Source of the DNA: an uncultured Clostridia bacterium
GTDB taxonomy: Bacteria > Bacillota > Clostridia > Christensenellales > Borkfalkiaceae
Assembly (NCBI GenBank): GCA_947626685.1
Contig: CANQTD010000002.1
Coordinates: 62,001-126,000 of the forward strand
DNA: 64,000 nucleotides
Direction: 5' to 3'
The position numbers and the translations under genes were made by a program. Below are positions 7,809 through 8,384 of the stretch, one piece after another (position 1 is the stretch's first letter; every line of letters begins with the position of its first letter). The notes beneath the pieces were generated by a model. The model saw only the letters and a list, made by a program, of their open reading frames with translations. It ran no database searches and was not told the DNA's origin.

Positions 7809-7846
7809 GAAAAGACCAACCTAACTCGGTTCGAATTAGGTTGGTC
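7809..7846 (-). terminator. Terminator of the tRNA-Arg array (minus strand)
   Basis: On the minus strand GACCAACCTAA and TTAGGTTGGTC form a perfect 11-bp stem, followed by TTTTCT. It lies a few bases past the 3' end of the last tRNA copy. Confidence 0.8.
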
Positions 7847-7850
7847 GTGG

Positions 7851-7976
7851 TGCGCCGTAAGGAACTACTTCGCCTGCGGCTCGTGCCGCCTTAGTAGCGC
7901 AATAGAAGTGCGGCGGGGCGAATCCCTAACCTTTGGTTCCGTAGACCAACGCTCTATCCAATTGAGCTAACGGCGC
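7851..7976 (-). pseudogene. tRNA-Arg(ACG) copy interrupted in the T-loop by 52 bp
   Basis: From 7976 down, the acceptor 5' strand, D arm and anticodon arm (loop CTACGGA, anticodon ACG) match the intact gene at 8095-8168. After the T-stem 5' half and TTCG, 52 extra bases (7867-7918) intervene. The T-stem 3' half and acceptor strand then resume and end at 7851. All outer pieces are present, so only removal of the insert would give a normal tRNA. The insert is GC-rich and self-complementary (GCGGC/GCCGC, CCGCC/GGCGG). It is too short for a group I or II intron, so I call it an insertion and the gene broken. Confidence 0.7.
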
Positions 7977-7984
7977 ATATTCGG

Positions 7985-8042
7985 TTTTGTGCGATTCTCG
8001 TTCCTTACAGGAGCTACTTCGCCCTACGGGCTCGTGCCGCCC
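7985..8042. repeat. Partial copy of the tRNA-associated repeat (unit 1)
   Basis: This segment (GTTTTGTGCGATTCTCG onward, through CTACTTCGCCC to GTGCCGCC) is nearly identical to 8176-8232 and sits in the same place relative to a tRNA 5' end. It contains the inverted words GCCC-TAC-GGGC. It breaks off at GTGCCGCC, where the other copies continue with TTAGTAGC. Its GATTCTCGTTCCTTAC part resembles the tRNA T-arm in inverted orientation. Confidence 0.65.
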
Positions 8043-8061
8043 GCGATACAATACAGTAAAA

Positions 8062-8084
8062 CAAAAGGAGGCCAAATGCCTCCT
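8062..8084 (-). terminator. Terminator behind the intact tRNA-Arg gene
   Basis: On the minus strand AGGAGGC and GCCTCCT form a 7-bp stem with a 5-nt loop, followed by TTTGTTTT. It lies 11 nt past the tRNA 3' end. Confidence 0.75.
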
Positions 8085-8094
8085 GTTTGTTTGG

Positions 8095-8168
8095 TGCGCC
8101 GTAAGGAACTCGAATCCCTAGCCTTTGGTTCCGTAGACCAACGCTCTATCCAATTGAGCTAACGGCGC
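8095..8168 (-). tRNA. tRNA-Arg, anticodon ACG (intact)
   Basis: This 74-nt minus-strand gene folds as a full cloverleaf. Acceptor GCGCCGT pairs with ACGGCGC; the D stem is GCTC/GAGC; anticodon stem TTGGT/ACCAA encloses loop CTACGGA; T stem AGGGA/TCCTT (one G-T pair) encloses TTCGAGT. The discriminator base is A, and CCA is not encoded. Anticodon ACG, normally edited to ICG, reads CGU, CGC and CGA arginine codons. Two damaged relatives flank it. A strong promoter upstream of the array (8356-8384) probably drives all three. Confidence 0.93.
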
Positions 8169-8175
8169 ATATTCA

Positions 8176-8261
8176 GTTTTGTGTGATTCTCGTTCCTTAC
8201 AGGAGCTACTTCGCCCTACGGGCTCGTGCCGCCTTAGTAGCACAATAGAAGTGCGGCGGGG
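8176..8261. repeat. Full copy of the tRNA-associated repeat (unit 2)
   Basis: The left part repeats 7985-8042. It then continues with TTAGTAGCACAATAGAAG and GTGCGGCGGGG, the same sequence as the 52-bp insert in the first tRNA copy apart from a few substitutions. It ends exactly where the third tRNA copy begins, inside the T-loop (CGAATCCC on the + strand). Inverted segments (CCGCC/GGCGG, GCCC/GGGC) suggest a folded RNA or a small palindromic element. Confidence 0.65.
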
Positions 8262-8319
8262 CGAATCCCTAGCCTTTGGTTCCGTAGACCAACGCTCTAT
8301 CCAATTGAGCTAACGGCGC
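8262..8319 (-). pseudogene. tRNA-Arg(ACG) copy truncated in the T-loop
   Basis: The first 58 nt (acceptor 5' strand to T-loop TTCG, anticodon ACG) match the intact gene. Beyond that point comes the repeat element, and the T-stem 3' half and acceptor 3' strand are not found, so no tRNA can form. It is the first copy downstream of the array promoter. Confidence 0.75.
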
Positions 8320-8355
8320 ATGTGCGTTCGGGTCTCTCAAACCCGACACCATGAC

Positions 8356-8384
8356 ATTATATCCGAATCCGCACTGTTTGTCAA
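8356..8384 (-). promoter_or_regulatory. Promoter of the tRNA-Arg array (minus strand)
   Basis: TTGACA (8384-8379), 17 nt, TATAAT (8361-8356): both hexamers are perfect. It points toward the tRNA copies, whose first 5' end is 37 nt beyond the -10. Confidence 0.85.

Follow-up and report, generated by a model that had tools for sequence, protein, structure and literature searches.

How does a tRNA gene come to be interrupted within the T-loop, one of the most highly conserved sequences known, and what is the short palindromic sequence that interrupts it? In the window, by which we mean the whole 64-kb stretch of DNA analysed here, we identified three copies of tRNA-Arg(ACG) (A, B and C), all on the minus strand, in the region 7814-8384 (Table 1). 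The first-pass annotation had described one intact copy, one copy split by 52 nt inside the T-loop with both halves present, one cut at the same point by the same element, and an additional part of the element between the copies. Each of these features was recovered: copy B is an intact tRNA-Arg(acg), the insert in copy C lies between TTCG and A, copy A ends at TTCG and is followed by the element e3, and e2 is the additional part. The halves of copy C join into 77 nt that differ from copy B by a single change (position 48, C to T), and ARAGORN calls a tRNA-Arg(acg) in copy C when the 52 nt are removed.

Table 1. Features of the tRNA-Arg(ACG) array, listed in the direction of the minus strand; a slash marks the insertion point in the target.
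Feature	Positions	Strand	Remarks
Promoter TTGACA-17-TATAAT	8356-8384	-	12/12 consensus bases; upstream of copy A
tRNA-Arg(ACG) copy A, truncated after T-loop TTCG, without its 3' part	8262-8319	-	58 nt identical to copy B
Palindromic element e3, full, 54 nt, junction TTCG/AGCTCC	8208-8261	-	Directly after copy A
Spacer with small fold-back hairpin, between e3 and copy B	8170-8207	-	
tRNA-Arg(ACG) copy B, intact, CCA encoded	8092-8168	-	64.8 bits
Terminator-like hairpin separating copies B and C	8066-8084	-	
Partial element e2, without the left arm of hairpin 1; the right part remains, with hairpin 2 and the end of hairpin 1	8016-8039	-	
Spacer, second copy	7977-8015	-	Inside the 123-nt direct repeat
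tRNA-Arg(ACG) copy C, 5' part up to TTCG	7919-7976	-	
Palindromic element e1, 52 nt, splits copy C at TTCG/AGTTCC	7867-7918	-	
tRNA-Arg(ACG) copy C, 3' part including CCA	7848-7866	-	
Terminator hairpin after copy C	7814-7846	-	Same hairpin at intact tRNA-Arg loci of G033, G020 and G036

The array contains a direct repeat of 123 nt with 98% identity (7919-8041 and 8111-8233), showing that a unit of spacer plus tRNA was duplicated. This repeat, together with the same T-loop split in other tRNA types and species, argues against a chance arrangement. A tandem-repeat finder returned zero rows, and the 64-kb window holds no copies of the element other than e1, e2 and e3. The six flanking open reading frames (ORFs) that we tested are ordinary genes, encoding SpoVAD, SpoVAC/AE, an EamA transporter, a DtxR/MntR-like repressor, a Big_2/VanZ protein and one product with no Pfam match. 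The proposal that a single promoter serves all three copies stands in part: a perfect promoter precedes copy A, but a terminator-like hairpin separates B from C, so copy C may not share a transcript with A and B.

From 225 copies sampled with their flanks, we obtained 92 non-redundant copies that define an element of 50-60 nt with the order CCCCG, hairpin 1, CGGCACGA, hairpin 2 and GAAGT. The fixed parts (CCCCG, CGGCACGA and GAAGT) were demanded by the search pattern, and three variable pairs of hairpin 1 were left unconstrained. These three pairs are Watson-Crick in 86, 85 and 84 of the 92 copies (shuffled means 57, 44 and 67), as are pairs 2 to 4 of hairpin 2 in 71, 72 and 74 copies (shuffled 52, 30 and 33). 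Pairs were counted by anchors because hairpin 2 is misaligned in our alignment A1, which holds 74 elements (one of 75 non-redundant elements was left out). About 16 copies have two pairs of hairpin 2 swapped for G.A and A.G. The two hairpins of the element thus covary. Summed over the seven variable pairs, there are only 12 G-U pairs versus 518 Watson-Crick pairs, which would be more in keeping with a palindrome in DNA than with a structured RNA. Folding was not unusual for the element alone (mean z -0.70, n=120) or for the split tRNA transcript (z -1.29), and a third stretch that was folded lay 4 nt off the element. Rfam scans assigned the element to no RNA family and no intron family. Longer variants occur at serine loci: in a tRNA-Ser copy (L019, G000:C45:3900-5210) the loop of the second hairpin has gained about 38 nt, and elements of 88 nt are found at Ser loci of G092 (L111).

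The first-pass annotation had recommended a search for the element across the genome, and further copies are abundant. With the array as query, BLAST returned 33 other matches in the genome of origin (1.78 Mb in 52 contigs). A pattern covering the whole element matched 47 times in that genome and 1,948 times across 66 of the 103 genomes of the genus, compared with 2 matches for the reversed pattern. Within an order-wide sample of 297 genomes, 7 had a match and six of these belong to the same genus; the seventh (G193) has two matches, both without a paired hairpin 1. None of 14 genomes from other genera of the same family had a match, and outside the genus there is almost none of the element in the order. 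We found at least 119 matching stretches, and among the 80 listed, 74 are from 'uncultured Clostridia bacterium isolate Lapin' metagenome-assembled genomes (MAGs) and the remaining 6 are unrelated records in which the right end is missing. A phage origin was considered and rejected: 51 IMG/VR stretches matched the pattern, yet only 1 of 38 distinct matches had both stems.

The copies are similar up to their ends and not beyond them. Eight copies in G010 share a mean pairwise identity of 0.86 inside the element versus 0.29-0.31 in the flanks. Twelve copies in G084 reach 0.98 inside, with 0.34-0.39 in the left flank and 0.69 then 0.40 in the right flank, which is partly common to the copies (a partly shared host repeat). 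Empty sites were identified in three relatives: copy C minus the 52 nt aligns to an intact tRNA-Arg followed by the same terminator in G033 (94%), G020 (95%) and G036 (98%), and the comparison reveals no target duplication at copy C. The empty site suggests that copy C probably occupies the position of the ancestral gene, and that A and B would have been added by duplication. Judged from these sequence comparisons, the element behaves as a mobile unit with defined ends, in line with the small palindromic mobile element initially suspected.

Copies fetched without a TTCG filter had junctions at G/A (48 of 53) or G/T (5 of 53). Over all sampled copies, 189 of 225 junctions are G/A and 36 are not, in a sample enriched for TTCG through the way in which loci were fetched. 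The host sequences are mainly other palindromic repeats (CATTCTG/AGCG, CATTTCG/A and GTGACTG/AGGGG, read directly) and tRNA arms. We assigned 39 of the 225 copies, at 31 loci, to a tRNA class, in which the sequence around the element corresponds to an arm of a tRNA no more than 400 nt away. Without the TTCG filter, 6 of 53 copies lie in tRNA arms and 45 of 53 have no tRNA within 400 nt. The latter is also true of 98 of 141 TTCG-flanked copies, and for one TTCG copy the only tRNA is on the other strand.

The tRNA-class copies cover 13 anticodon types, scored as that of the nearest tRNA: Arg acg/cct/ccg, Ser gct/tga/gga/cga, Glu ctc, Ala ggc/cgc, Tyr gta, Lys ctt and Gly ccc. Of these 39 copies, 35 are at the T-loop TTCG/A, a step that we take to be tRNA positions 57/58, and the other 4 are elsewhere, three following the anticodon stem. 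In 12 of the 13 types the T-loop is cut at this same step, and the tRNA-Gly case involves the variable arm. The first-pass annotation had considered repeated insertion into the T-loop, and these copies bear that idea out, suggesting that tRNA genes can be a preferred landing site for such repeats. All 39 copies are in the orientation of the tRNA, including 15 of 15 at the symmetric TTCG/AA. Since the sequence of TTCG/AA permits both orientations, something besides the short motif may set the orientation.

Arrays of two kinds are found repeatedly at tRNA genes. In the first kind, upstream of an intact tRNA, the repeated unit consists of the tRNA 5' part, TTCG, the element and a fold-back spacer, as in the present window, at L139 and L138 of G097 and at L135 of G010. 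In the second kind, downstream of the tRNA, an inverted T-arm is followed by TTCG, the element, a tRNA 3' end and a terminator; examples are L131 of G103 (Arg-CCG, three copies), and L137 of G009 and L142 of G103 (Ala). Flanks joined across the insertion fold better than shuffled sequences, with mean z of -3.21 for the tRNA class (n=39), -2.55 for other TTCG copies (106) and -2.00 for the others (80), versus -0.46 at 150 random TTCGA sites. At 13 of 39 tRNA-class sites, versus 55 of 800 random G/A sites, an internal loop contains the junction, often with GA opposite GA; at 17 of the 39 the junction is paired (100-nt fold). A hairpin setting is over-represented at targets without being general. 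The signal from a test for inverted arms was weak: at least 14 of 18 matches in 15 of 141 TTCG copies and 9 of 84 others, versus 23 and 29 of 1500 random sites. An earlier version was also weak, with at least 11 of 14 matches in 22 of 141 and 5 of 84 copies versus 3% of random sites. We hypothesize that the target is folded DNA.

We looked for a gene that could move the element. Y1/RAYT transposases are poor candidates, as Y1_Tnp is present in 9 of 37 genomes and does not track the element; at E 0.001 none was detected in the element-rich genomes G005, G006, G007, G012, G024, G026, G032 and G033. Nor do reverse transcriptases (in 24 of 103 genomes) or IS110 (above the cut-off in 4 of 103) track the element. 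The left-end motif was absent from the 12 Y1 loci fetched, and no autonomous copy with a gene between the hairpins was found among 328 left-end matches. That none of the three enzyme families tracks the element may point to an enzyme, or to a process based on replication, that has so far not been linked with repeats of this kind. Separately, two near-identical IS200-type elements (L086, G000:C10; L095, G000:C39) have a 182-aa Y1 transposase frame and hairpin ends of their own. The ends of the IS200-type elements in the genome studied here are unrelated to those of the palindromic element.

Having observed dispersal, defined ends, an empty site, a preferred target step, stem covariation and repeated T-loop insertions, we consider it probable that the element is a REP-like, non-autonomous palindromic mobile repeat of 50-60 nt that inserted into duplicated tRNA copies. 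Insertion occurs between the G and A of a YG/A target, without target duplication, and other palindromic repeats and the tRNA T-loop TTCG/A recur as targets. At this locus, one ancestral tRNA-Arg(ACG) with its terminator would have been tandemly duplicated, and element copies would have landed in the spare tRNA copies and been amplified along with them. The spare copies would then have been free to decay while copy B remained intact; the order of duplication and insertion is presumed. Movement would be enzyme-driven and would act on folded single-stranded DNA. More tentatively, these 50-60 nt two-hairpin elements may constitute a so far undescribed class of micro-transposon, moved by an enzyme other than Y1/RAYT, reverse transcriptase or IS110. 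Such elements would insert without target duplication and in fixed orientation at the G/A of hairpin targets, with tRNA T-arms as a natural hot spot.

Alternatively, there may be no dedicated transposition, and the repeat may spread by template switching during replication and by recombination between hairpins, of which tRNA T-arms are one kind. We regard this as a serious rival, although we think it rather unlikely. Fold-back copies of the T-arm adjoin elements, the joined flanks of the tRNA class fold better than shuffles (in contrast to random TTCGA sites), G-U pairs are few and no tested enzyme tracks the element, all of which speak for this alternative. However, the occurrence of near-identical copies (0.98) with differing left flanks and a fixed G/A step suggests a defined cut-and-join reaction. 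The covarying stems and the constant orientation near tRNAs, which is retained at the symmetric TTCG/AA, would also suit an element that selection maintains as a functional module of tRNA operons, at the RNA or the DNA level, such as a device for processing or termination. This seems improbable, as most unfiltered copies (45 of 53) have no tRNA within 400 nt, the element is absent at the same tRNA in relatives, G-U pairs are few and there is no Rfam family.

The first-pass annotation had also raised the possibility of integrase crossover, and several arrays, in which the tRNA 3' end (A58 to CCA) is repeated with terminator and element, do resemble serial att sites left by repeated integration of islands at a tRNA 3' end. 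This idea was not borne out and we consider it very doubtful: the six ORFs tested beside the array include no integrase family, copy C and the empty site fit one 52-nt insertion with no duplication of ends, and the majority of copies reside, at the same G/A step, in other repeats away from tRNAs. A removable, intron-like insert, where copy C would be transcribed and the 52 nt excised from the T-loop to give a working tRNA-Arg, had been rated the less likely option from the start, and we find it very unlikely. Copy C does hold all 77 tRNA nucleotides (with one change), an encoded CCA and a terminator, and in silico removal restores a tRNA for Arg-ACG, Arg-CCT and one Ser-like locus. Yet these are just 3 of the 225 sampled copies, and in this genome the split Arg, Glu and Ser copies each adjoin an intact tRNA of that type. 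Further, the 3' half of copy A is lost, a terminator lies between B and C, Rfam scans detect no intron family and the same element is found within non-tRNA repeats. That the array is an artefact of assembling repeats is scarcely credible. Although the assembly is in 52 contigs, several of which end in such repeats, the same architecture is present in many assemblies and relatives have a clean empty site.

The nearest known kind of system is that of REP/REPIN sequences and their TnpA_REP (RAYT) transposases. Like these, the element is a short, dispersed, high-copy palindrome (47 copies in its own genome and 1,948 in 66 of 103) whose stems are maintained by base pairing. Among REPs tagged with GTAG or CGTC, some are described in the cited sections as inserted inside other palindromes (PMC3733652), and TnpA_REP is described as processing folded single strands, cleaving at CT next to the REP (PMC8266576). 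The present element, which may work similarly, differs in that it is a unit of two different hairpins in 50-60 nt with a YG/A target step, and has no GTAG or CGTC tag at its 5' foot. Instead, 74 of 74 aligned elements start with CCCCG, which the pattern required, and GTAG arises only where the right flank is AG, spanning the junction. There is also no consistent Y1/RAYT gene in the genus. Given the lack of the defining tag and of a consistent transposase gene, we do not file the element as a member of the REP/RAYT group.

Miniature elements derived from IS200/IS605 insert without target duplication, have two terminal hairpins and need a short flanking target. Insertion without target duplication, as seen against the empty site in three relatives, is common to both. 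In contrast to such miniatures, the present element shares no ends with an autonomous TnpA element (in 12 fetched Y1 loci and 328 left-end matches), most carriers tested lack Y1, and the whole unit is just 50-60 nt. tRNA introns, whether group I or of the archaeal type, interrupt tRNA genes in the anticodon loop; here the insert is 52 nt in the T-loop, belongs to no Rfam intron family and coexists with intact copies. Unlike an integrase att scar, the insertion in copy C involves no duplication, and the six neighbouring ORFs include no integrase family. Rickettsia palindromic elements are dispersed palindromes, some inside genes, which the sections cited here place in spacers and protein genes and not in tRNA T-loops (PMC1950309, PMC3733652). 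Compared with those descriptions alone, the fixed nucleotide step is a difference. A literature search that mostly did not reach subscription papers returned no paper describing palindromic repeats in the T-loops of bacterial tRNAs.

The element leaves behind arrays of tRNA fragments, which provide a handle on how palindromic repeats choose their targets. They bear on whether the substrate is single-stranded or in hairpin form, and on the remodelling of tRNA gene sets. If the micro-transposon reading is true, then throughout a bacterial genus this element has time and again split, duplicated and reshaped tRNA genes.

Several other arrangements were observed at tRNA genes. Upstream of an intact tRNA-Arg in another family of the order (L051, G054), a different palindrome interrupts partial copies of tRNA-Arg close to the D-stem (GCGCCCTTA / TTAGCTC), indicating that the present element is not the only palindrome to split tRNA copies. 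At a tRNA-Pro(CGG) gene (L070, G000:C15), the 3' portion of the tRNA, from anticodon stem through CCA, recurs about 200 nt downstream, and the junction lacks a full element. At a tRNA-Thr(GGT) gene (L009, G000:C3), the terminator hairpin overlaps the 3' end of the tRNA; an element in the opposite orientation comes after this hairpin, and a degenerate tRNA copy is located upstream. Downstream of tRNA genes, a second type of repeat starts directly behind an inverted T-arm (L137, G009:C9; L058; L059) and further along bears an inverted repeat TTGCGG...CCGCAAACTGAACAGC; it looks like another T-arm-anchored mobile repeat.
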